In this document: one piece after another, positions 9,510-23,915 of the stretch
Numbering within the stretch: position 1 is the stretch's first letter
Layout of the letters: every line of letters begins with the position of its first letter
Assembly (NCBI RefSeq): GCF_009765225.1
Contig: NZ_VMSF01000001.1
Span: forward strand, 1,674,001-1,738,000
Length of the DNA stretch: 64,000 nucleotides
DNA from: Leifsonia sp. AG29
GTDB taxonomy: Bacteria > Actinomycetota > Actinomycetes > Actinomycetales > Microbacteriaceae
Direction of reading: 5' to 3'
The notes under the pieces: model-generated
Database searches by the model: none
What the model was told of the DNA's origin: nothing
What the model saw: the letters and a program-made list of their open reading frames with translations, nothing else
Translations under genes and position numbers: made by a program

Positions 9510-10578
9510 CCTCCGCGGTCGCCATGAGCACGGAGAGAAGGTGGGCGGCGGAGCGCTCCCAGGTGTAGCGCTCCACCTCCCGCTTAGCGGCGGCGGACCG
9601 CGCCGCCCAGATGCCCGGCTCCTCGAGGTGCTTGACCCGCGCAGCCAGCTGCTCCGCTGAATCCGGGGCGAAGAACAGCGCCGCCTGGCCCCCGATCTCG
9701 CGGAAGATGGGGATGTCGCTCACGACGACCGGGGTCCCGAGGATCATGGACTCGACGAGCGGGATCCCGAAGCCCTCATCGTGGGATGCGCTGACGAGCG
9801 CCGTCGCCGCTGCCACCGTCTCGGCGTACTCCTCGTCGCTCGCGCCGTCGTGGAAGACGAGCCGCGCTCCGGGAGCCAGCCCGCTCAGCCGGTGCTGTTC
9901 CGCCTCGGAGACCCGGCTCATCAGATGGAGGGTGTACTCCGGGAGGAGCGTCATGGCGCGGACCAGCGTGTCGACGTTCTTGTAGGGCATGAAGGAGCCC
10001 ATGTAGACGAGGCTCTTCGTCTCGGGTGCTGTCCGCGAGGCCCGTTCCGGCGAGATCGGCGGCATGTCGGCCGCGTTGGGTACGACGTACACGGGCTTGC
10101 GGGTCAAATGGTGCTCGGCGATGAGCGCCTTCGTCGTCTCGGAGACCGTGACGACGGCGTCCGACCGGTTGAGCAGCATCCGCTGCGGCCACCAGGCGAG
10201 GTGATAGAGGCGCCACAGCCCCCGGACGAACGCGGGCAGGTCGCGAGGAGGCTTGGGGTGGCGGTAGTAGATGAGGTCGTGGACCGTGAGCACCAGTCGG
10301 TAGCGCCGACCAAAGCCGCCCATCGTCTGCATCGGCGTGAACACGATGTCGGGGCGCAGCTTGTTAACCCGGCGGGCCACCCACGGCTCGCGCGGCGACG
10401 TCGGCGATGGGGCCAGCTCCCACGGGAGGTCGGGCAGCATCTCCAGCTGGCGGTGGTCACTGATCAGCATGGTGACGGGATGACGCCGGCCGAGGGCGGC
10501 CACGAGGCCCGCGGTGTACCGGCTGATGCCGTCGTGCCGGCCGATGCGCGTGTAGCGGCAGTCGAAGACGATCCTCAT
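9490..10578 (-). CDS. Glycosyltransferase family 4 (GT-B fold)
   Basis: A 362-aa GT-B enzyme. The N-terminal domain starts with the DGISRYTAGL acceptor loop. The C-terminal nucleotide-sugar domain has YMGSFMPYKNVDTLVRA and the E-x7-E-like region SHDEGFGIPLVESMILGTPVV. It most resembles mannosyl- or rhamnosyltransferases that act on polyprenyl or glycolipid acceptors; donor and acceptor are not determined. ATG at 10578 lies 11 bases after the stop of the alpha/beta-hydrolase gene, so the two are an operon. No transmembrane segment is evident. Confidence 0.82.
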   Translation of the reverse strand: MRIVFDCRYTRIGRHDGISRYTAGLVAALGRRHPVTMLISDHRQLEMLPDLPWELAPSPTSPREPWVARRVNKLRPDIVFTPMQTMGGFGRRYRLVLTVHDLIYYRHPKPPRDLPAFVRGLWRLYHLAWWPQRMLLNRSDAVVTVSETTKALIAEHHLTRKPVYVVPNAADMPPISPERASRTAPETKSLVYMGSFMPYKNVDTLVRAMTLLPEYTLHLMSRVSEAEQHRLSGLAPGARLVFHDGASDEEYAETVAAATALVSASHDEGFGIPLVESMILGTPVVVSDIPIFREIGGQAALFFAPDSAEQLAARVKHLEEPGIWAARSAAAKREVERYTWERSAAHLLSVLMATAEVTSPKR

Positions 10579-15120: not shown

Positions 15121-15260
15121 CACTAATGGCCCCCTCAGCTGCCGATGTCGGCAATGAGGGGGCCATTAGTGCCAACTCAGTTCCGCTGTCGGCAATGAGG
15201 GGGCCGTTGGTGCCGACTCAGCGGCCGATCCCGGCCGCGGGGCCATTGGTGCCGACCCAG
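15121..15260. repeat. Long hairpin and three diverged ~40-bp repeat units
   Basis: A perfect 17-base inverted repeat (15121-15137 and 15155-15171) has an inner GCCGA/TCGGC stem. Its right half begins a 33-base unit (15148-15180) repeated at 15189-15221 and, in shorter form, at about 15238-15260. The spacing is about 40 bases and each unit ends in a GGTGCCGAC-like stretch. It lies downstream of the DUF4190 gene and just outside the integrated element. It could act as a bidirectional terminator; it also looks like a dispersed intergenic repeat family. The 15021-15348 interval otherwise shows no gene. Confidence 0.75.
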
Positions 15261-15289
15261 CCGGCGAGCCCACGCCCCCCACGCACGAC

Positions 15290-15319
15290 GAAGGCCCCCA
15301 CCAAGCGGCGGGGGCCTTC
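15290..15319 (-). terminator. Original rpmE2 terminator, stranded on the far side of the element
   Basis: Ten-base perfect arms (15290-15299 and 15310-15319) form a GC-rich hairpin. Read on the minus strand it lies about 30 bases after the remnant rpmE2 stop codon at 15349-15351, which is the position expected for the terminator of rpmE2 before insertion. Confidence 0.65.
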
Positions 15320-15351
15320 ATCTCTGCGGCGCGAACGCCGCCGGCGGCTTA

Positions 15352-15369
15352 CTTGCCGAAGTTCTTGTA
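15352..15369. repeat. Left attachment core (attL), remnant of the rpmE2 3' end
   Basis: This 18-base copy is identical to 23667-23684. Read on the minus strand with the adjoining TTA at 15349-15351 it encodes the YKNFGK tail and stop of the ancestral rpmE2. In the rebuilt circular junction, CTAACTGG (15376-15383) pairs with CCAGTTAG (23657-23664) as an inverted repeat around the core, as expected for a serine-integrase attP. The centre of symmetry falls on the TT of AAGTTCTT (15362-15363). Confidence 0.85.
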
Positions 15370-15383
15370 CCGCACCTAACTGG

Positions 15384-15389
15384 TACGGT
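15384..15389 (+). promoter_or_regulatory. -10 hexamer TACGGT, leaderless promoter of the integrase
   Basis: TACGGT ends 7 bases before ATG 15397 and abuts the right arm of the attP-like inverted repeat. A 17-base spacer would place the -35 region inside the att core. Confidence 0.4.
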
Positions 15390-15396
15390 CGATCAC

Positions 15397-16949
15397 ATGA
15401 GCAGAACCCAGCCACGACGTGCCGTACTTTACGTGCGCCTTTCGAAGGACTCCGAGCGCTCAACATCCATCGCGGGCCAGCACTCCGACCTCCACGCGAT
15501 CGCGCACCGGGAGGGCTGGAAGTCGTGGCGACATTCGTGGACAACGGCCGCTCGGGCGGCAAGGAGCGCGCCAACGCTCAAGCTGCCTACGACATGGTAT
15601 ACAGCGGCGCCGCCGACGTCCTCGCTGTTTACGCATACGACCGATGGAGTCGTCAGGGCATCGAGAAAGCAGCCGACGTGATCCGGCTTGTCCGCGAGCG
15701 CCAGGAGTCTGGCCACCCGGCGCTATTCTTCGCAGAGCGGGAGGGCATCCGCTCTGACCGTGACGACTGGGAAATGCAACTGGCGTTCGCCGCCGACATC
15801 GCGAAGAAGGAACGCGACCGCACTCGTGCGCGCCAGATCGCAGCTCGCGACAGGATGCGCCGGGAGGGTCGCAACCCCGGCTATGGCACACCGCCGCTCG
15901 GCTACCGAACCGGCCCTCATCCGACGCTCTCGACTGGACGTGGCTTGCTCGTGATTCCCGAGGAAGCGGAGATTATCCGAGAGATTGCGGATCGCCTCGT
16001 CCGCGGCGAGTCTACGGTCAAAATCGGCTACGACTTGACGGAGCGAGGGTTCCCTCGAGCGCGGTCGAAATACCGCAAGGCACTACTAGCGGGTGACGAT
16101 CCCACTGGCCTGGACAGGGGCGCTTGGGAGCCGCCCCGCATCCGAGACACATGGATTAGTGACCATCTCCTCGGGCGCGTCAGCTTCAAGGGCGCACCCG
16201 TTCTCGACGTATCAACTGGCCTCCCGCTCACTCCGTTCGAGCCCATCCTCGACCTCGAAACGATACTCAAGATACGAGAGCGCTTTTCAGCGAAGCGCGG
16301 CGAGCAACGCCTACGGCGCGCAGCTCGGCTACTTTCCGGGGTCGCCTACTGCGGTATCTGCGACGAAAAGTCCTACCCTAAGGTGTCACGTGGTGTTCCC
16401 TACTATCAGTGCTCTGGCGTCGCCCGCGGTAAGAAGTGCCCTCAACCACGGATCGACGCCGCGCTCGTCGAATCCATGGTGTCAGACCTGTACCTGGCGG
16501 TCCGCGGGGACGCACCGGAGGTTCGAGTGGTGGAACATCTGAGCGATCCTGAAACGGTCGCCCTGCTCGCGACGGTGTCCGAACAAATCTCAGTGGAGAC
16601 GGCACGGTGGGCCGCGCTCGATGGCGATGAGGCAGATGCAGTCCTTGCGACCATCGGAGACCTCAAACGGCGCCGGAGCGAACTGCAAGCCATCAAGCCA
16701 CGGCGGACCATTGAAGTCGTTGAGACCGGTCGGACCTTCGCGGCCGCGTGGGCAGACGCCGACACGGACGGACGACGAGCGATGTTGCTGGACGCTTTGG
16801 ACCATGTGAGCGTCTACCCACGCTCGAACACCGACCGAGTAGTCGCCCACTGGTACGAGGGCATCGACCAGCCAGAAGGGCACTCCAGCGGCCCCGACAA
16901 CCCCGCCAATCGTCGCGCGCCGCGTTCCGTTCGCGTCTCAGAGCTTTAG
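15397..16949 (+). pseudogene. Large serine recombinase (integrase), interrupted by a frameshift
   Basis: The catalytic domain starts in one frame (residues 1-40, AVLYVRLSKDSERSTSIAGQ, catalytic Ser16) and continues in another from about 15515-15523 (EVVATFVDNGRSGG, then the YAYDRWSR and ERDRTRARQ regions). Restoring one missing base near 15513-15520 gives an intact protein of about 517 aa, a normal length for a large serine integrase. A recombinase domain (GYGTPPLGYRTG) and a zinc ribbon (CGIC...C...C, 16344-16440) follow, then a coiled-coil segment. It lies 27 bases from attL, the usual place for an integrase. The change is either a real inactivating deletion or a sequencing error. Confidence 0.85.
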
Positions 16950-16961
16950 CCGAGGATCCGG

Positions 16962-17231
16962 ATGCTGACCTATGCCGAGGCAATGGCGCGAGTCCGCGAA
17001 GACTACGCCGCCACGTGGCTCGAGTCGCACCCTGGCGGCACGTTCCACACGGACCCCGACGGCTACGAGGACGGCAGCGCCTACCTCGTCCCCGTCTCCG
17101 ACCCGTGCGGGCCGCCGATGGTCGACGACGCGCCAGCCGTGCTTGTGGACAAGGTCACCGGCGGGGTGAGCCACCACTCGCCTCTCGACATTCTCGACCG
17201 CATGGGGGCCATGACGCCGATATCGGTCTAG
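16962..17231 (+). CDS. Small unknown protein, immunity/YrhB-like character
   Basis: An 89-aa acidic protein starting 12 bases after the integrase stop, with GAGGA before ATG 16962, so it is probably co-expressed with the integrase. The arrangement (a helical start YAEAMARVREDY, a strand with YLVPVSD, then VLVDKVTGGVSHHS) resembles small YrhB/Imm35-type proteins, in which a VDK.TG turn is common. That resemblance is by eye and weak. No excisionase-type HTH is visible. Confidence 0.55.
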   Translation: MLTYAEAMARVREDYAATWLESHPGGTFHTDPDGYEDGSAYLVPVSDPCGPPMVDDAPAVLVDKVTGGVSHHSPLDILDRMGAMTPISV

Positions 17232-17422
17232 CCTCCCGGAACCCGGACTGGCTCTTATCGGCAGGCGCTCATAGCGTCCAGATCACCTAGCGCGCGCTTT
17301 CGCCTGGGGGCATTTGGGCGGCGCGCCCCGCGCTCAGCGCCGAGCCCGAGGCACCGTACACGTCGCGGCCGCCAGTGTCAGCGCGGGTCACCGAGCGTCC
17401 ATGCAGCGGCGCACGGAGCGCC

Positions 17423-17938
17423 CTACGACGCTTGGTCCGTACGTCCAGAGGCGCCTCTGGAGTTGGCATTTGCGGGCGACGCATGGTCCATCGCTCGCTC
17501 ATAGGCGATCGGATCGAACGCCTCTATCCAGCCATGATGAATGGCTGCGAATTCCTCAGCAAGCCCGTTGAGATAGGAGGCTTCCAGCGGCGTATTTTGC
17601 GGCAATCCGCCTGAGTTGGGAATGTGAACCAGTACCGGCCGCCCGCTCTCGACCAAGTTGCCCGGGATGCTGTGTAGTACGGCGTTGCGCTGTCTCGCGG
17701 CTGATTTTGCCCGCTCTAACCAGTCGACGCAGTGAAGCGCCTGTGGCCGCCCGTCGTGTTTGAGTAACGCGACCGCGTCGTCAATCAGCCGTCCTAGGTT
17801 CTTCTTGGAACCGATACTCTTAAGAATTTGTTCGGCGACGGCCCGCGCCCTGTCCTCAACATTGATAGCGGCCCAGGCAAGCCTCCCAAGCGCCATGATG
17901 ACGTCGTTGTCGAGGTCGTCCCACGTGCCGTCAGTCAC
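17423..17938 (-). CDS. HEPN-like helical protein (candidate)
   Basis: A 171-aa, mostly helical protein. RNAVLH at residues 84-89 fits the R-x4-6-H motif of HEPN ribonucleases and substrate-binding HEPN proteins, inside a context (WLERAKSAARQRNAVLHS) typical of the motif helix. GTG 17938 was chosen because upstream residues to 18076 are basic, low-complexity and run into the 31-base inverted repeat; no good ribosome binding site decides it. It is transcribed opposite to the integrase and capsid genes, as cargo genes often are. A toxin or defence role is inference only. Confidence 0.5.
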   Translation of the reverse strand: MTDGTWDDLDNDVIMALGRLAWAAINVEDRARAVAEQILKSIGSKKNLGRLIDDAVALLKHDGRPQALHCVDWLERAKSAARQRNAVLHSIPGNLVESGRPVLVHIPNSGGLPQNTPLEASYLNGLAEEFAAIHHGWIEAFDPIAYERAMDHASPANANSRGASGRTDQAS

Positions 17939-18046
17939 AAGGTAATGGTAGCGGCGCCGGTTAGGCCCAGCCGTGCAGTCCGTTGGCGCCGCAGTCCGCC
18001 ACGTTGCACGCCGAGCGAGGTGAGGCGGAGCGCTCCGGTGTCGGGA

Positions 18047-18153
18047 GTGTGACGAAAGTGACGAAAATGACGTCACCTTCTATTACTTGTACGAGTCTCT
18101 CTCTCTTATGGCCGGAATAGAGGGTGACGTCATTTTCGTCACTTGCGTCACAC
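18047..18153. repeat. 31-bp inverted repeat built of GTGACGAAA units
   Basis: Arms 18047-18077 and 18123-18153 are reverse complements at 30 of 31 positions, around a 45-base AT-richer spacer. Each arm contains two GTGACGAAA-type units and the palindrome TGACGTCA. It sits in the 334-base gap between the minus-strand HEPN-like gene and the plus-strand zinc-finger gene. It could be a divergent operator or a replication or packaging signal; nothing in the window decides between them. Confidence 0.85.
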
Positions 18154-18272
18154 AACCTCATCCGGCGCCTGGAAATGGGCGCTTAGCACTCTCGGCGCGG
18201 CCAGCGGTGGGCACACTGGCGCACTACTCAGGTGTACCAAGATGTGCACGTTCGGTTCCCGAGGAGGCCCCC

Positions 18273-18443
18273 ATGTCCAGCAGTTCGCGATGCTCCCAGT
18301 GTGGCGTTGCAATAACGAGCAAGCGGCGAGACGCTCGCTATTGCGGTGCTCCCTGTCGGGCTGCCGCGAGCCGCGGGCGTGCCGCCTCCACCATCGCCAC
18401 GCTCACCGTCCTCGCCGCCATCCGTGAGGTCGCCCCTGGCTGA
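18273..18443 (+). CDS. Small zinc-finger protein
   Basis: A 56-aa protein with Cys7, Cys10, Cys24 and Cys28 (C-x2-C-x13-C-x3-C, with a YCGAPCR second knuckle), a four-cysteine knuckle like that of DUF2116-type and HNH-associated zinc fingers. A basic helix rich in Ala and Arg follows. GAGGAG (18261-18266) precedes ATG 18273 by 6 bases. It is the first gene after the inverted repeat and precedes the capsid gene by 213 bases. It may be a DNA-binding regulator of the element; that is inference. Confidence 0.6.
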   Translation: MSSSSRCSQCGVAITSKRRDARYCGAPCRAAASRGRAASTIATLTVLAAIREVAPG

Positions 18444-18656
18444 CGCCATGGCTGGCGTCGAACGAGCACTCGACGGCCGGTAAAGCCGCTGACGTCCCCA
18501 ACCGCTACTCGGTAGTGCCGGGCGGGCGGAGACCCACTCGCGCCCTCGGGCGCTCCTCGACGACCGGGCAGAGTCCGGCGCGTCCAACTACGCAAGCGCG
18601 TCCCATCCCTCCCGTCAGGCGCCCACAGGCGCCGCTAACTCCCTAGGAGTGCCTCC

Positions 18657-19550
18657 ATGGCTACCAACACCCTCCTCGTCCCCTCCGAGGTCGCCTCGCT
18701 CGCCGCCGAACTCCTGGCCGGTGACCTCGGCGTCGCTGCCACCGTCTCGACCGACGTGCGGGCAGATTTCGCCGACCGCGTGGGTTCTAGCATCCGCGTC
18801 CGCGTCCCGGGCGCCGTCAAGGCCATCGACCGCGGCGTCGGCGAGGTCTCGCCGCTCACCCGCCAGAACATCGCCGAGCAGTACATTACGGTCACCCTTG
18901 AGCACGACCGCGGCTCGGTCGTCCCGATCAGCGACGCCGACTACACGCTCAACCTCAAGGAGTACGGCGTCCAGGTGCTTTCGCCCCAGGTCTCGGCCAT
19001 CGCCAACTCCATCGAGCGTGACGTCGTCGCCAAGCTCAAGGCAGCGCCCGTCGACGCGGGCATCGCCTACGACCCGGCCAAGCCGACCGACGCCCTCGCT
19101 GCGATCCGCACCCGCCTCCGCTCCAACGGCGTCCCCGCGTCCACCAAGCTTCACCTCGCGGTCGCGCCGGACGTGTATGGCGACCTCCTGGCCGCTGGCG
19201 CGTTCAACGACAACGCGACCGACGGCGGCCTCAGCGTCGCCAAGTCGTTCACCGTCATCGAGTCCAACCGTCTCGAGGCCGGCGAGCTGATCGGCTACAT
19301 CCGCAACAGCATCGCTCTCGCCGTGGTCGCCCCCGAGGCACCGCAGGGCGCCCCGTTCTCGGCCTCGCAGGCCGTTGAGGGCGGGGCCGTCCGCATCGTC
19401 AACGCCTGGGACCCGAGCGTCGGCGTCGACACCTCGTACGTGAACACGTTCGTCGGCGTCGCGGCCATGCCGCTTCCGGTTGTCGACGAGGACGCCGGGA
19501 GCGTGACCCTCGTGACCAACGGGGGCATCGTGCACGTCGCCTCGGCGTAA
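18657..19550 (+). CDS. Major capsid (coat) protein, P22 gp5-like
   Basis: A 297-aa protein that begins TLLVPSEVASLAAELLAG and continues with GSSIRVRVPGAVKAIDRGVG, then an alternating beta pattern (QYITVTLEHDRGSVVPISDAD). This layout is typical of P22-type coat proteins found in actinobacterial phages and prophages. Residues about 95-180 form the spine-helix-like region (SPQVSAIANSIERDVVAKL) and the C-terminus is beta-rich. AGGAG (18645-18649) lies 7 bases before ATG 18657. A hairpin follows the stop, then small connector genes. No scaffold or protease gene is visible. Confidence 0.72.
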   Translation: MATNTLLVPSEVASLAAELLAGDLGVAATVSTDVRADFADRVGSSIRVRVPGAVKAIDRGVGEVSPLTRQNIAEQYITVTLEHDRGSVVPISDADYTLNLKEYGVQVLSPQVSAIANSIERDVVAKLKAAPVDAGIAYDPAKPTDALAAIRTRLRSNGVPASTKLHLAVAPDVYGDLLAAGAFNDNATDGGLSVAKSFTVIESNRLEAGELIGYIRNSIALAVVAPEAPQGAPFSASQAVEGGAVRIVNAWDPSVGVDTSYVNTFVGVAAMPLPVVDEDAGSVTLVTNGGIVHVASA

Positions 19551-19566
19551 CCGCCCCCTCCAGACC

Positions 19567-19609
19567 GGGGCTCGCCCGCAGGTATTAGGCCAGCGGGCGG
19601 GCGAGCCCC
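19567..19609 (+). terminator. Hairpin after the capsid gene
   Basis: Perfect 13-base arms (19567-19579 and 19597-19609) flank a 17-base loop, 17 bases after the capsid stop, with no T-tract. It may partly terminate transcription or protect the capsid mRNA so that coat protein is made in excess of the downstream genes. Confidence 0.6.
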
Positions 19610-19631
19610 TCACCTCTCCGAAAGGTCACGT

Positions 19632-19877
19632 ATGACTAACCTCGACCGCGCACGGTACCTCAGCATCGTCGAGGCGGCCGTCCGCGACTACCCTGTCAAC
19701 CTCTCGGCGCTCTCGTCTGCGCAGCGCGCTGCGCTCGAGGCTCAAGCCGAGCGCCAGCACACGACGCCCCAAGCCGTCCTCGACGCCGCCCGCGACGAGG
19801 TCCTCGCCAGCATCGAGGCAGAGCGCGCAGGGCGCGCCATCGCCCTCGAGGTAGTCGCCGAGAGCGGAGGCGGGTGA
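19632..19877 (+). CDS. Small unknown protein downstream of the capsid gene
   Basis: An 81-aa protein, helical and rich in Ala, Arg and Glu (RYLSIVEAAVRDYPVNLSALS, then QRAALEAQAERQHTTPQAV). It shows no membrane segment or known motif. It starts at ATG 19632 after GAAAGG and ends in TGATG, overlapping the next start by one base, so the three genes from here to 20400 are one translational unit. The position between coat and connector suggests a minor head or accessory protein; function unknown. Confidence 0.65.
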   Translation: MTNLDRARYLSIVEAAVRDYPVNLSALSSAQRAALEAQAERQHTTPQAVLDAARDEVLASIEAERAGRAIALEVVAESGGG

Positions 19878-20005
19878 TGGCCGGACCGTCCAAGCGGTTC
19901 CTCAAGGGCAAGTACACGCCGCCGCCCGCACCTCGGATGCCTCGCGCGCCCTACCCCACGCCGAGCATCCCGCCTCGCCCGGCGCCCTCGAGACGTTCCG
20001 AGTGA
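19877..20005 (+). CDS. Very small basic proline-rich protein
   Basis: A 42-aa protein starting at ATG 19877 inside the previous stop (TGATG) and ending in GTGA that overlaps the next GTG start. About a third of residues are Pro and most others are Arg, Lys or small residues (KRFLKGKYTPPPAPRMPRAP). The double overlap with both neighbours is the main evidence that it is translated. It may be a disordered linker or decoration peptide of the head; function unknown. Confidence 0.55.
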   Translation: MAGPSKRFLKGKYTPPPAPRMPRAPYPTPSIPPRPAPSRRSE

Positions 20006-20400
20006 CCGCGCTCCCGCCGCCCGTCGCGGACCTCGAGGCACGCCTCGGCCTGGCCTCTGGAACGCTTGACGGCGATGACCTCGCCCGCGCCTGGGCCGCC
20101 CTCAACGACGCCGCCGTCCTCGCCGTAGCCGAGGCCGGCGTCGTGGCCGGCGAACGCTGGCACGTCGACGCTCCCGCCGTCGTCACCCTCGTCGTGCTCA
20201 AGGCCGCCCGCCGCGAGTACGAGAACCCGCGAGGTGTCCAGCAGGAGACCCAAGGCGACCACTCGATCGGCCTTACCGAGACCTCCGGCGTGTACCTCAC
20301 GCCCCGCGAGCTCATGCAACTCCAACGGGCCGCGTTCGGTGGCTCGGGCCGGTTCCTCGGCTCGATCCGCACCCCTAGCGCCTACCCGCAACGCCCCTAA
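20002..20400 (+). CDS. Probable phage head-tail connector / head-completion protein
   Basis: A 132-aa protein with an N-terminal helical bundle (VADLEARLGLASGTLDGDDLARAWAALNDAA) and a central helix (PAVVTLVVLKAARREYENPRG). It ends in SIGLTETSGVYLTPRELMQL, a pattern typical of gp6/gp15-like connector proteins, in which helices pack against the portal and a loop lies between. GTG 20002 overlaps the upstream stop. It follows the coat gene as connectors do in complete phages, but the portal it would bind is absent from the element. Confidence 0.65.
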   Translation: MTALPPPVADLEARLGLASGTLDGDDLARAWAALNDAAVLAVAEAGVVAGERWHVDAPAVVTLVVLKAARREYENPRGVQQETQGDHSIGLTETSGVYLTPRELMQLQRAAFGGSGRFLGSIRTPSAYPQRP

Positions 20401-20514
20401 CTGTCCGGCACGCGCGACGACGCGCGCATCGGCTAGCGCCGCGTCGAGGCCCTTGCCCTTTCCGCTTGACGCGGCGCCGTCGCTGCCTCTCCGCCGTGAC
20501 GCGGATGACGACGG

Positions 20515-20556
20515 GCCGGGCCCGTCCTCCCTCTCTCGAAGGACGACGGGCCCGGC
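20515..20556. terminator. Bidirectional hairpin terminator
   Basis: Perfect 12-base arms (20515-20526 and 20545-20556), extended by a GTCCT/AGGAC bulged stem, stand between the convergent connector gene (ending 20400) and Cas2-like gene (ending 20568). The rest of 20401-20514 holds no evident gene. Confidence 0.75.
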
Positions 20557-20567
20557 ACATTCTCGTA

Positions 20568-20840
20568 CTAGGCGTTCTTACGGATCCAATCCCAGACCTC
20601 CTTGTCCAGCCATCCTTGGCGGTCTTGCCCGGACACGTTGACCACGAAGATGTTGTCGTTCGCGTCGAGGACCGGGCCGAGGTTGTCATAGATGCCCTGC
20701 GCTGTGAGCGAGTATCCGCTCACCATCCACGTCGACTCCATCAGCTTGGCCCACGCTCCATATGCCTTGATCTTTTGCGAGAGCTTCTCGTACTTCTGCC
20801 CAGGTGTGTTGAGGTCGTAGGTGATCAAATAGGCGGTCAT
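20568..20840 (-). CDS. Cas2/SinR-like small ferredoxin-fold protein
   Basis: A 90-aa protein starting YLITYDLNTPGQKYEKL, with ESTWMVSGYS and NDNIFVVNVSG strands and a C-terminal helix WLDKEVWDWIRK. The beta-alpha-beta-beta-alpha-beta order and the early Asp (YDLN) match Cas2-fold proteins of the stand-alone SinR type. AAGGAAG precedes ATG 20840 by about 7 bases. No cas1 gene or CRISPR array is present, so it is not a CRISPR adaptation gene. It is transcribed opposite to the capsid operon and may be toxin-like (VapD/Cas2 fold); that is inference. Confidence 0.6.
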   Translation of the reverse strand: MTAYLITYDLNTPGQKYEKLSQKIKAYGAWAKLMESTWMVSGYSLTAQGIYDNLGPVLDANDNIFVVNVSGQDRQGWLDKEVWDWIRKNA

Positions 20841-21586
20841 TGGCCGCTTCCTTTCGGGAACAAGCCACCTACCGTGGCGGCGCGCCGCCTAGTCCGGGTG
20901 ATCCGCATCCCGACGTACTTGGGATACCCTCGAGTGAGAATCCGGCCAGATTCGACCCAAGAGGCCCGAGAACGGTAGAGCCCGTGTCTCGGGCGTTCTT
21001 GTTCTTGTCTCAAGTCTGCGCGACACCTACGACGCGAAAACGACGACACGCCGAGTAATCTCCCGGGGCCTCATTCGTTAATGACTATGGTTTCGCAGCC
21101 ATCGAGCCTCCTGGCTCCGGGCATCAAGACGCGCCGCGCTCGCTCCAAGGGCCTTGGGTGGCGCGAACACCAGTCGGGACCGCCCGGTATTGTCTCTTTA
21201 GACGCGGCGGGGCTGTCGACCGCGGTACGCGCAAAACGGCAGATTGCACCGCATGAACCGACCTGTCACAGGCATGACCATCATTGCGCCTTGCGCCGAG
21301 CCACACCCCGCAATGCGACGACGCCGGGACCCCTGGGGGCCCCCTCCCCCCTCCCCCCTCCCTCCCGGCCCGGTTAGGCATAGGGCCTCGGGGCGCGCGC
21401 GAGTCTGGGGGTTCGAGCAGCTCGAGTGAGACGCCTCGCGCCCGCGGTCCGAGGGCTGAGCCGCCGCTTTGACTCCGCCCACCCACCACAACAACTGCTC
21501 GCCTACGCACACACTTCGCTGTGCCTTGTTCGGCGTCAACTGAGTCTGCCGTCGACCGCGAGTCGCGGCACGTGTGCATCCGGTCG
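20841..21586. other. 746-base interval without a supported gene
   Basis: It holds a perfect 8-base-arm hairpin (20964-20971 and 20987-20994, 15-base loop) followed by a T-rich stretch, which may be a terminator. At 21340-21366 there is a 27-base run of only C and T that gives a strong G-quadruplex pattern on the minus strand. Open frames on both strands (for example 21253-21429 plus, 21198-21635 minus) lack ribosome binding sites and have unconvincing composition, so I call no gene. Confidence 0.5.
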
Positions 21587-22030
21587 ATGGTGAACCTAGG
21601 GAGCGTGGACCTTCAACGCACGCTCCTTCTCGCATTGATCCTCCTGGGCGCGGGGTTGCCGGTCCTTGGGGCCGGCCTGGCCTACCGGAACGGAAGAGAG
21701 ACGCTCAGAAGGCATGAGGCGGACATGGCCGAGTCTGAGGCCCTCCGTCTTGAATGGGGAAAGGCTCAAGCGGCGGCCATGCAGTCAGCCGCTACCTGGA
21801 ACGCCGAATCTCGGAAGATCACGGCGCACTATCACCAGCAGTTCAAGGAGCGTGGGCTCCTAGTCCCGTCCTTCGATACGGCGGGTCAAAACGCTACGGG
21901 TGATCTAGCCATACTCCCCGTTCTCCGGTTACTCGGCAGGGGCCAAGGGTGGAACGTCGCGCTGGTCGCTGCCGGAGTGTTGTGCTCCACGGTGGCCGCC
22001 GTATGGTCCCTCTGGCTCCCACCTGTCTAA
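21587..22030 (+). CDS. Small membrane protein, two transmembrane helices
   Basis: A 147-aa protein with a first hydrophobic helix at about residues 11-30 (TLLLALILLGAGLPVLGAGL), a charged, probably cytoplasmic helical middle (RETLRRHEADMAESEALRLEW) and a second helix at about 122-142 (VALVAAGVLCSTVAAVWSLWL). The start is uncertain: ATG 21587 has no clear ribosome binding site, and GTG 21605 has AGGGAG but only one base away. No family recognised. It is in the element with another membrane protein downstream. Confidence 0.55.
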   Translation: MVNLGSVDLQRTLLLALILLGAGLPVLGAGLAYRNGRETLRRHEADMAESEALRLEWGKAQAAAMQSAATWNAESRKITAHYHQQFKERGLLVPSFDTAGQNATGDLAILPVLRLLGRGQGWNVALVAAGVLCSTVAAVWSLWLPPV

Positions 22031-22067
22031 GGCGCTGCCTGCCGCTCGCCGAGTTCACGCCCCGGGC

Positions 22068-22073
22068 TAGACT
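22068..22073 (+). promoter_or_regulatory. -10 hexamer TAGACT, leaderless promoter
   Basis: TAGACT ends 6 bases before ATG 22080 with no ribosome binding site, so the gene is probably transcribed from its own start codon. Confidence 0.5.
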
Positions 22074-22079
22074 CCGATC

Positions 22080-22613
22080 ATGATTCACCTGGTGGCGCAC
22101 TTTTGGGCGCACCCCGCGCCCGCACCAGATGGACTAGCGATCGCGGCGTTCGCTCTCTCCCTTATTGCGTTGCTTTGGAATATCGCTCTGACGTTCGTCC
22201 GTTGGCCGCGCGTGGCCACGGACATTCGTCAAAGCGCCTTCGCCACCGTCAACGGACCCGGCGACGGACGCGAGGTCCTTTACCTGGTGTCGGCAACCAA
22301 TATGGGCGCCGAGCCGACAACAGTGTGGAACGTCGCACTTGCAGAGAAGGGCAGCAGACGGGGTCAGTACTATGCGTCGGTCGAGAACGAGCGGGCAAAC
22401 GGCAGAGCAGTCGACGGACCCGAACTTCCCGCGACTCTCCCCGCTCGGTCAACCCTGACGTGGACGTTCGGCCACGAGGTAACCCGACACGTCCAACCCG
22501 GTACCGTCACTCAAGGGGTCGTCCAGCGCTTCCGGCCCCTCCGATGGTGGCATTCGCCTGAGCGTCTCCAATGGAAGGAATACAGATCGGCGCGCTCTCG
22601 GGTGCGCGATTAG
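22080..22613 (+). CDS. Single-pass membrane protein of unknown function
   Basis: A 177-aa protein with one N-terminal transmembrane helix (about residues 17-38, LAIAAFALSLIALLWNIAL) and a soluble beta-rich C-terminal domain containing LYLVSATNMGAEPTTVWNVAL, a pattern seen in Ig-like or DUF-type domains. Cytoplasmic placement of the domain follows from the positive residues after the helix (RWPRVATDIR). No family recognised. A strong terminator follows the stop. Confidence 0.65.
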   Translation: MIHLVAHFWAHPAPAPDGLAIAAFALSLIALLWNIALTFVRWPRVATDIRQSAFATVNGPGDGREVLYLVSATNMGAEPTTVWNVALAEKGSRRGQYYASVENERANGRAVDGPELPATLPARSTLTWTFGHEVTRHVQPGTVTQGVVQRFRPLRWWHSPERLQWKEYRSARSRVRD

Positions 22614-22651
22614 GCCCCCGGCTTCGAGAACTCTCGAGCCCGGGGGCTTTT
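22614..22651 (+). terminator. Rho-independent terminator
   Basis: Fifteen-base arms (22614-22628 and 22633-22647, two mismatches) with a 4-base loop are followed by TTTT. This is one of the few classical T-tract terminators in the window. It serves the gene ending at 22613 and may also serve the convergent gene ending at 22694. Confidence 0.75.
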
Positions 22652-22693
22652 CGTCGTTTCTGCCCCAGCAGCCCTGCCGCCCGAGGTGCCGAT

Positions 22694-23149
22694 CTACGCT
22701 CGTGCTCGCGAAAGTCGAGTCTGGATCTTCTCGAGCAATTTCGACGGGAACTGATCCTCCATCCACAGCTCGTAGTAGCCCCCGGTCCCGTGCCTTGCAA
22801 GAACTGCTGCGGCTCCCTCGGCAATCGCCTGCGCCAGTTCTCGAAGCGGCATTGTCGCATCGAACTTGACCACCCCTGTGGCGTCTGGCTCGTCGACCCA
22901 AGTTCCGAACCAGATGATTTGAAGCCGCACGCGACCTTGTTGCTTTTCGAACTGCCACCAAAATGCGCCGGGCTCTTCGGACCAGAAACATCGCGCAGCG
23001 GCAGCGCCGTCGAGCAAGCCTTCAACCGCTCGGAGGAGATCTCCTAACGCGTCGCTCAGGTAAGACGCAGTCACGTGGGCGGACTGAACCCCGTAGCGTA
23101 CGTCCGCGTAGGCCCAGCCAGCCCGCCTAAGCCGGAAATCGAACTCCAT
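22694..23149 (-). CDS. Unknown soluble protein of an actinobacterial family
   Basis: A 151-aa protein with a layout (ASYLSDALGDLLRAVEGLLDG, then CFWSEEPGAFWWQFEK and VRLQIIWFGTW) that I associate with a widespread, uncharacterised actinobacterial family often found near polymorphic-toxin immunity genes. That association is from memory and unverified. ATG 23149 starts it; no ribosome binding site decides otherwise. It lies in the right arm of the element on the minus strand with the next small membrane protein. Confidence 0.6.
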   Translation of the reverse strand: MEFDFRLRRAGWAYADVRYGVQSAHVTASYLSDALGDLLRAVEGLLDGAAAARCFWSEEPGAFWWQFEKQQGRVRLQIIWFGTWVDEPDATGVVKFDATMPLRELAQAIAEGAAAVLARHGTGGYYELWMEDQFPSKLLEKIQTRLSRARA

Positions 23150-23324
23150 GCCAGCACCGTAGTCCCAGCCCCCTCAGCTTCGTCGGACCGATCGCAGCCT
23201 ATGGTGTCGGAACTTGCGATCCTTCATTTGGCCGCCTTCGAGGGACCGCACGAGTCAAGTGAAACGAAAGCACCGCCTCGCCGACCGACAACTTCTTGAA
23301 CGTGCAAACGCATGGCATCGCTCG

Positions 23325-23588
23325 CTACGAAGTGATCCGAGCCACGATGTTCACGACCCCCACGACCGCGATGAGCGGCCCTATGATCACGAAAGGTACT
23401 AATGCCCATCGCTGGTTGCTCGTTGTGTAAATGCGATCGGCGACCCTCTTTCCGAAGCGGTCCGTCCCTCGGCGCCGGAAGAACTCCACGAGACGATCAG
23501 GATGCCTGAGGCCGTAGATGCCGAGGACAGTGAATCCCGTGCTCGCTACCGTCGAGATGATCAGCCCGGCCAGTGGGACGTTGCTCAA
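23325..23588 (-). CDS. Small membrane protein, two transmembrane helices
   Basis: An 87-aa protein with hydrophobic helices at about residues 5-25 (LAGLIISTVASTGFTVLGIYG) and 63-83 (LVPFVIIGPLIAVVGVVNIVA), separated by a basic loop (RHPDRLVEFFRRRGTDRFGKR). It is the last gene before attR. No family recognised; such a hairpin protein could be a holin-like or immunity protein, but nothing shows this. Confidence 0.6.
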   Translation of the reverse strand: MSNVPLAGLIISTVASTGFTVLGIYGLRHPDRLVEFFRRRGTDRFGKRVADRIYTTSNQRWALVPFVIIGPLIAVVGVVNIVARITS

Positions 23589-23613
23589 CGGTCTCAGTTT
23601 CCCCTGCGTACGA

Positions 23614-23643
23614 CGAAAGCCCCGCTCTGAGGCGAGGCTTTCG
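23614..23643 (-). terminator. Element-supplied terminator for rpmE2
   Basis: Eight-base perfect arms (23614-23621 and 23636-23643) form a hairpin 18 bases after the current rpmE2 stop (minus strand). It lies inside the element and replaces the original terminator now stranded at 15290-15319. Confidence 0.6.
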
Positions 23644-23660
23644 AGGTGGTGATGAGCCAG

Positions 23661-23915
23661 TTAGTTCTTGCCGAAGTTCTTGTAGCGCGAGTTGAACTTC
23701 TCGACGCGACCGGCCGAGTCGAGGATGCGCTGCTTGCCCGTGTAGAACGGGTGCGACTCGGACGAGATCTCGACGTCGATCACCGGGTAGGTGTTGCCGT
23801 CCTCCCACTCGATGGTCTTGTCGCTGGAGCGGGTGGAACGGGTGAGGAACGTCGCACCCGAGGCCAGGTCGCGGAAAACCACGGGGGCGTAGTCGGGGTG
23901 GATGCCAGTCTTCAT
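23661..23915 (-). CDS. rpmE2: 50S ribosomal protein L31 type B
   Basis: An 84-aa L31 of the B type: [41 protein letters not shown] and the RYKNFGK tail, without the CxxC zinc ligands of the A type. Type B forms are generally used when zinc is scarce. ATG 23915 follows AAGGA at about 8 bases. The last residue (Asn) and stop come from the integrated element: the ancestral end was YKNFGK-stop, as still seen at 15349-15369. The core repeat 23667-23684 lies inside the coding sequence. Confidence 0.93.
23667..23684. repeat. Right attachment core (attR) inside rpmE2
   Basis: This 18-base copy is identical to 15352-15369. On the left it is bounded by CCAGTTAG (23657-23664), which pairs with CTAACTGG at 15376-15383 in the circular form; on the right it continues into the native rpmE2 sequence. 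Confidence 0.85.

Follow-up and report, generated by a model that had tools for sequence, protein, structure and literature searches.

The window analysed here, a 64,000-nucleotide stretch of the Leifsonia sp. AG29 genome (C1:1674001-1738000 of 3.68 Mb), contains an 8,315-bp island (window positions 15352-23666) that is most probably a cos-type satellite of Casidaviridae-type phages. Its major capsid protein (MCP) would replace or remodel the shell of a helper phage, which would provide the portal, the terminase and the tail; we infer that the island depends on such a helper. What appears to be new is that elements of this kind carry the cos packaging site of Casidaviridae-type phages: in the open-licence literature searched, a scope that leaves most subscription papers and preprints outside, nothing was found on these elements as a family, on the cos site that they carry or on the phage group that would help them. 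The original prediction had described a coat protein, two tiny linked genes, a connector-like gene and an integrase as a satellite-like island, with a decayed prophage as the alternative. The satellite reading is now supported by 16 small elements, a clade formed by their MCPs, ratios of nonsynonymous to synonymous substitution (dN/dS) and a phage-type cos site. This site (21332-21421) and a frameshift in the integrase gene near 15520 had both gone unnoticed; the former adds a packaging mechanism absent from the prediction, and the satellite reading is strengthened by it.

The island is bounded by exact attachment (att) repeats. The 18-bp attL core at its left end (CTTGCCGAAGTTCTTGTA; 15352-15369, plus strand) is repeated directly and without mismatch in the attR core at its right end (the same 18 bp; 23667-23684, plus strand), which lies within the final codons of the host gene for the type B ribosomal protein bL31 (23661-23915, minus strand; NCBIfam NF002462, E 6.3e-41). 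The 3′ end of this gene is thus the attachment site, and the repeats give a size that matches the roughly 8.3 kb estimated at the outset. The GC content of the element is 65.4%, compared with 69.9% for the rest of the window. The bL31 protein was matched in 28 of 28 genomes of the genus, and the insert-free att core with both flanks was found in all 26 that lack an element at this site (no 8-kb insert). In these element-free genomes the left-flank matches reach the core and the right-flank matches start inside it, forming one short locus; in some of them, an additional few hundred bases separate the left-hand gene from the core. A second element occupies the same bL31 site in another genome (G005; G and L numbers denote genomes and loci or contigs, respectively), with 8,728 bp between the repeats. 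It is related but diverged, its MCP being ∼40% identical to that of the window. The predicted integrase is present as a large serine integrase (15397-16949, plus strand; PHROG 95, E 7.5e-57; Pfam Resolvase, Zn_ribbon_recom and Recombinase), but in a three-frame translation its frame is broken: the N-terminal part lies in the frame of 15397, and the remainder in that of the open reading frame (ORF) 15126-16949. The N-terminal part resembles the unbroken N-terminus of the G005 integrase. Taken together, the exact ends and the integrase, albeit frameshifted in this copy, show the island to have the make-up of an integrated mobile element. The att repeats of eight other elements described below could not be fixed from single loci, which contained just 9-12 bp repeats of chance size.

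The gene at 18657-19550 (plus strand), which is full-length and intact, codes for the 297-aa MCP, a coat protein of HK97 type. The protein matched PHROG 283 ‘major head protein’ (E 3.7e-33) and PHROG 267 (E 1.2e-14). In tblastn searches at E 1e-5, it matched 269 of 50,697 phage records, none at more than 60% identity; the best 40 of the 269 carry annotations as major capsid or head proteins, and the first of these is 36.5% identical over 100% of the query. The coat assignment was therefore correct. Its likeness to the P22 coat protein was less certain, since the Pfam P22_CoatProtein match (E 2.7e-4, 20.3 bits) falls under the 24-bit cut-off of the model. The two tiny genes also proved to be real. 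One, at 18273-18443 (plus strand; start codon picked by eye), codes for a small zinc-finger-like protein (PHROG 6975, E 2.4e-7 for the longer ORF 18087-18443) and belongs to a cluster of conserved MCP neighbours found in 14 of the 16 elements. The other, at 19632-19877 (plus strand), codes for an 81-aa protein with no PHROG match below E 0.16, homologues of which are encoded directly downstream of the MCP gene in three elements (L034, L035 and L081); it is possibly an assembly or size factor. The connector-like gene at 20002-20400 (plus strand) corresponds to the head-tail adaptor Ad1 of Casidaviridae-type siphophages (PHROG 137, E 4.8e-17), and is at most 61% identical to the Ad1 of the nine related phages compared.

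A search for loci related to the window MCP in viral contigs and genome contigs found no relatives; likewise, the MCP of L064 had none among viral contigs and that of L049 matched only itself. An MCP profile matched 19 of 398 genomes of the family and 12 of 396 of the order. Full prophages were told apart from small elements by reading 20-kb loci. The 19 family-level matches comprised six small elements and 12 loci taken as prophages (ten by reading, and G266 and G193 by a large terminase (TerL) gene within 8 kb of the MCP gene), plus G219, where TerL is on another contig; the 12 order-level matches comprised seven small elements and five prophages. With two IMG/VR contigs, three loci from Curtobacterium luteum, Actinotalea sp. 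and Arthrobacter sp., and G005, and with L034 and L080 counted as one element, the total was 16 small elements. The 15 besides that of the window provide the other genomes with a similar gene set that the original prediction had called for, all bearing an MCP and lacking TerL and portal.

The gene content of these elements was examined with hidden Markov models (HMMs) trained on as many as 15 related phages and prophages, over ∼10 kb to either side of the MCP gene except in L049 and L050, whose contigs measure just 6.8 and 9.0 kb. The MCP was detected in 16/16, and TerL, portal, protease, major tail protein and tape measure in 0/16, although unrelated types could escape these models; the genes for an autonomous virion thus appear to be lacking throughout. 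Ad1 was found in eight elements, a scaffolding protein in three and Hc1 in two. A small terminase (TerS) was present in six: five recognized by PHROG 1496 (E 7.8e-18 to 5.7e-4), and that of L063 by clustering alone. For the window (5001-35000), the same models found no TerL, portal, protease, scaffold or tail genes. This agrees with the first description, except that the idea of an own small head does not hold: an element with no portal, protease or scaffold encodes no complete head. As a positive control, the TerL model matched 13 of 15 prophage loci (five of these 13 had helped to build it; among loci unused in building, 8 of 10 were matched). It missed L046 and L047, two loci of other phage types, and a very different TerL could escape it. 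That the elements are full prophages with unrecognized genes was rejected, the TerL model having matched none of them. No PHROG 2 TerL match lay near the elements of G000, G005, G052, G404, G413, G356 and G307.

Six related phages have in common, at their genome ends, a G-rich/C-rich hairpin followed by GGCAT|AGCGYCT and a flank. When these ends were compared with the elements by blastn, the best match was between Tbone and positions 21343-21413 of the window (84.5% over 71 bp, E 2.6e-9). The putative cos packaging site of the island (21332-21421, plus strand), which sits between predicted genes, consists of a hairpin, a cosN GGCATAGGG at 21377 and a phage-like flank downstream. A 90-column position weight matrix (PWM), built solely from the six phage ends, scored 63.0 for the window, and between 21.1 and 63.7 in 13 of the 16 elements, in all 13 on the strand of the MCP gene. 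The control maxima were 12.8 in 423,690 flanking positions (both strands) and 16.7 in 40 resampled sequences per element. A 34-base pattern permitting the variant base of the window occurred once in the window and in none of 100 shuffles. The comparison shows the window site to resemble the cos of Tbone, Liebe and Zeta1847, which represent Casidaviridae genera, and of SuMoo. The exact phage cos pattern matched seven IMG/VR contigs, all of which carry related TerL and TerS genes, so the motif would mark a phage packaging region; a second cos pattern had no match among viral contigs. To judge from the contig names, one IMG metagenome (3300042923) is the source of both L050, which is a satellite contig, and L175, a contig of a related phage that bears the cos pattern.

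Each of the six elements with TerS has the site on the TerS strand, 65-272 bp upstream of the gene, an arrangement also seen in the phages; four of these six sites pass the PWM. The flank beyond the cut region was more phage-like than all 200 shuffles in six of nine TerS-lacking elements and in none of the six TerS-bearing ones, in a comparison devised after the data had been seen and with some elements related to one another. The best-matching phage flank was that of Tbone for the window and that of SuMoo for G005. Elements without TerS thus seem mostly to copy the phage cos flank, while those with TerS seem to keep the cut region and have a different flank.

In maximum-likelihood trees, the satellite MCPs formed a single clade with support of 99/98 (13 rows) or 100/98 (15 rows, set against 25 phage and prophage rows; L081 was left out of the trees). 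Its sister group comprised nine MCPs, those of Mysterium, Tbone, SuMoo, Liebe, GardenState, Zeta1847, Emotion, SWEP2 and the G158 prophage; the NCBI taxonomy places Liebevirus, Yangvirus (Tbone), Zetavirus and relatives in Casidaviridae. In an alignment of seven satellite MCPs with four from phages, the satellite rows lacked a two-residue piece near residue 40, and most had a shorter loop near residue 185 (hardly so in G005). The dN/dS values anticipated to be below 1 were indeed low in the two MCP pairs measured, neither of which includes the window MCP, which has no close relative: 0.135 for G413/G356, whose MCPs are 96% identical in amino acid sequence and whose integrases are just 35% identical, and 0.236 for G404/G052 (81% identity). 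In these two pairs the MCP is, on such ratios, under purifying selection. Since it is conserved while the integrases are swapped, the MCP would represent a kept module recombined with different integrases and cargo.

These results make it very unlikely that the island is a decayed prophage, that is, a deletion derivative of a Casidaviridae-type prophage that lost its packaging, portal, tail and lysis genes and kept the MCP and Ad1 by chance. The MCP and Ad1 are phage genes, the integrase is frameshifted and the cos site could also be a prophage remnant. Independent decay, however, should scatter the MCPs among those of phages, and all 15 in the tree group into a single clade that excludes the sampled phages, rather than nesting among phage or full-prophage MCPs. 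Nor would such decay be expected to leave purifying selection on the MCP in two pairs with swapped integrases, different gene orders (Ad1 precedes the MCP in G005 and follows it in the window), exact att ends, or a cos-like site retained in 13 of 16 elements. The decayed prophage, which the original prediction had held to fit too, was accordingly rejected on the MCP clade, the dN/dS values and the exact ends. The homologues of the island are not confined to full-length prophages, and the coat assignment did not fail in the HMM search.

The virion to which the island might contribute was approached through a comparison of Ad1, which faces the portal and the tail, with the MCP. Seven of the eight elements with a full Ad1 were used (G767, near-identical to G652, and the partial Ad1 of L065 were excluded). 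Ad1 was closer to its phage counterparts than the MCP in all 63 satellite-phage pairs (seven satellites by nine phages; means of ∼57% versus 39%). Among phage-phage pairs, Ad1 exceeded the MCP in 21 of 36, with means of 62% and 61%. The tail-facing adaptor thus tracks the phages and the shell protein has diverged, a pattern that we take to indicate a mixed virion. Since the genomes of the related phages, at 40-49 kb, are some five times as long as the island, packaging would require a smaller shell or island multimers. A plausible sequence of events would begin with a related phage infecting or being induced, upon which an active integrase would excise the island. The excised DNA would then be replicated, and the helper terminase would cut and package it at the borrowed cos site. 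The island MCP would build, or co-build, a capsid fitting the small genome on the helper portal, and the island Ad1 would join this capsid to the neck and tail of the helper.

Two other roles for the MCP were considered. It is tentatively possible that it takes up only the vertices (or a subset) of a mixed capsid in which helper MCP makes the hexamers. This would resemble SaPIbov5, a Staphylococcus aureus pathogenicity island (SaPI) in which Ccm is described as filling the pentamers of a T=4 capsid (PMC8569155). It would also fit with the lack of a protease in 16 of 16 elements and of a scaffold in 13 of 16; the scaffolding protein of the remaining three would instead fit a fuller shell of their own. 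Rather unlikely is an interference island, in which the MCP would be a decoy or poison co-assembling with phage capsids, accompanied by defence-like cargo, with the cos site and integrase serving occasional transfer. Among six elements scanned for cargo, four carry methylase, restriction or GmrSD-type domains, and the Ccm of SaPIbov5 is reported also to interfere with the helper (PMC5052747). A pure decoy, however, would have no need of Ad1, TerS or a cos site; the kept cos site and Ad1 point to packaging, and none of the cargo genes of the window has a clear defence annotation. The interference and packaging roles are in any case not exclusive of each other. It is well supported by the comparisons that the island belongs to a real, satellite-like and apparently cos-packaged family, in which the MCP may act as the whole shell, as pentamers or in interference.

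Wider searches found relatives with other combinations of these genes. The window cos site, compared with the 398 family genomes, retrieved L166 and L167, besides weak short matches. Both are elements (L166:3267-11011 and L167:8300-15080) with a serine integrase and a cos site (PWM 44.0 and 42.2) and without an MCP; L166 has the zinc-finger-like gene and L167 a TerS. At class level, 15 genomes matched; 11 besides that of the window were retrieved, L133, L136, L138 and L139 were partly resolved, and G1061 and G916 were left out. This search identified in G1031, from a different actinobacterial family, a serine-integrase element (L129:6678-15000, counted apart from the 16) whose MCP falls outside the satellite clade. 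No TerL or portal was detected in L129 with the models from related phages, and its cos-like flank (GGGATAGCG ... GGGTCTGAGG) does not pass the PWM (5.5). It probably represents an independent origin of the same lifestyle. Given L166 and L167, which lack the MCP, and L129, with its MCP outside the clade, the capsid module would be optional and was probably acquired at least twice. We lean slightly towards a broader proposal, in which these elements are minimal ‘shell-swapping’ cos satellites of Actinobacteria. They would carry an old coat clade split from Casidaviridae-type phages and travel in hybrid virions, with shell and adaptor from the satellite and with portal, terminase and tail from the helper. 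Packaging would alternate between two strategies, one copying the whole helper cos and the other keeping the cut region with an own TerS and a new flank; the capsid module would be optional, and the trick would have arisen at least twice (L129). Two PHROG 2 terminase genes were noted in the carrier genome G356, far from the element (C1:667601-668650 and C1:1508984-1510129), indicating that this genome holds other prophages.

Several observations weigh against regarding the island as a cos-type satellite that provides a shell. The cosN of the window is one base off the GGCATAGCG of all six phages, and just seven of the 16 elements combine the exact 9-mer cut region with a hairpin-like stretch. 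L063 (PWM 8.3) and L064 (best score below 0) fail the PWM and were accepted by eye and by pattern, L064 having an exact GGCATAGCGCCT behind a hairpin; L065 has no cos site recognizable by pattern or PWM. The TerS-lacking L036, L050 and L066 showed no phage flank in the shuffle test. Ad1 exceeded the MCP also in 19 of 21 satellite-satellite pairs (56% versus 42%), so the MCP may simply evolve fast in satellites, and the Ad1 tree was unresolved, with satellites and phages mixed. L166 and L167 indicate that a cos satellite does not need an MCP, and the MCP gene of L081 (Curtobacterium luteum NS184, L081:10001-10894) has an in-frame stop near 10181, which marks the copy as dead or reflects an error in the draft assembly. 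A single weak match to a tail terminator (1e-6) was obtained in L009. The one-base change in the cut region of the window and the partial dependence of the TerL control on its own training set slightly lower our confidence in the satellite reading. A relative of the G158-prophage TerL was looked for and not found in 11 element-carrying genomes, in a single-protein query with no positive control, so none of them showed a co-resident helper of that type. The integrases of both the window and G005 are frameshifted, the latter at a different place, further on; unless the frameshifts are assembly errors, both copies may be grounded, and that of the window may be so even if the family is alive. Finally, the evidence is drawn from sequence, and transfer, excision and particle formation are predicted.

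Structure prediction also gave little help, the AlphaFold model of the window MCP being poor (mean predicted local distance difference test score of 45.8). The top Foldseek match of this model was a capsid protein of phage Douge (E 3.7e-7, template modelling score of 0.34), a result that agrees with an HK97 fold and carries no weight by itself. HK97-fold proteins are also used as encapsulin-like compartments or in gene transfer agents, and encapsulins were among the weak Foldseek matches of the poor model. A domesticated capsid of either sort is nevertheless extremely improbable and was rejected, no supporting genes being found. The terminase, portal and tail that a gene transfer agent would need are lacking, and the module moves with integrase, att and cos, with varying cargo.

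Among known systems, the satellite proposed here is most readily set beside the cos-type SaPIs. It has a helper-like cos site, although that these phages are the helpers is our inference, and the PHROG 283 MCP corresponds, by description and not by Ccm sequence, to their capsid-protein homologue. The island family differs from SaPIbov4/5 in having a serine integrase, Ad1 and, in some members, TerS, scaffold or Hc1; SaPI integrases are tyrosine-type. As described in PMC5052747 and PMC8569155, SaPIbov4/5 are chromosomal satellites with a conserved phage cos and a capsid-protein homologue, and SaPIbov5 makes small capsids by means of Ccm. There, Ccm was shown to redirect capsid size, whereas the role of the MCP here is predicted (PMC5052747, PMC8569155). 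Because the phylum and the phages are different, the island is not filed as a member of the cos-SaPIs, and the descriptions suggest convergence. Capsid-forming phage-inducible chromosomal islands (cf-PICIs) are similar in encoding their own MCP and head-tail connector. They are reported, however, to carry MCP, protease, portal, connectors, TerS, TerL and HNH (PMC10690885), and portal, protease and TerL were found in none of the 16 elements. MulchRoom and MiniFlayer, satellites of Streptomyces phages, are likewise actinobacterial satellites with capsid genes. Unlike the island, they are described as encoding TerS, TerL, portal, MCP, scaffold and adaptor and as parasitizing virulent phages (PMC10690885).

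The candidate PICIs of Mycobacterium, including phiRv1 and phiRv2, combine an integrase and an MCP in one prophage-like region, as the island does by description, and are reported to have in some cases serine integrases and in some a terminase or scaffold (PMC10654092). They differ in being confined to one genus and having highly diverse MCPs, and a cos site goes unmentioned in the available text; capsid kinship may hint at their inducing phages, which the same source calls undemonstrated (PMC10654092). The phage-inducible chromosomal minimalist islands (PICMIs) of Vibrionaceae are also small satellites but, unlike the island, are described as having no capsid remodelling genes (PMC10803314), and PICMI-like satellites are said in a review to package several DNA copies per particle (PMC11389934). 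If the proposed reading is true, the island would be an actinobacterial counterpart of a SaPI with Ccm, with a helper group that can be read from the cos sequence of the satellite. The sharing of this cos site with an isolated phage group would make helper identity and packaging a testable pairing. Ranging from the MCP by itself, through its combinations with Ad1, scaffold or TerS, to relatives lacking the MCP, the clade would provide a natural series bearing on the minimal head gene set of a satellite and on how a swapped coat protein alters a capsid. The cos motif together with the MCP profile would offer a way to find satellites that terminase-based searches would miss.

The rest of the island is cargo. 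An 89-aa protein encoded at 16962-17231 (plus strand) matched PHROG 3585 ‘immunity protein’ (E 5.8e-7). The ORFs at 17423-18076 and 22694-23149 (both minus strand) have no assigned function and gave no matches in Pfam, PHROGs, PADLOC or NCBIfam. At 20568-20840, on the minus strand of the island, a Cas2-like protein of 90 aa stands alone (PHROG 1090, of unknown function, E 2.7e-28; weak Cas2 matches). Two hydrophobic products gave no PADLOC or NCBIfam matches: a probable membrane protein read from the translation at 21605-22030 (plus strand), with a similar ORF, by eye, in the G005 element, and an 87-aa product at 23325-23588 (minus strand; ORF list). The translation at 22080-22613 (plus strand) has an N-terminal hydrophobic segment and no confident family match in Pfam, PHROGs, PADLOC or NCBIfam.

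Two further features recur among the relatives. A protein of 270-350 aa with no PHROG match in the three members tested is common to five elements (L049:1828-2649, L063:11341-12204, L064:7586-8410, L066:11489-12529 and L082:11749-12747), and could be a replication or regulatory protein. In addition, L009, L033, L036 and L166, which come from different genera, share an attachment region that resembles dprA by eye and lies near xerC-rpsB-tsf in three of them, which suggests a second favoured integration site of the family.

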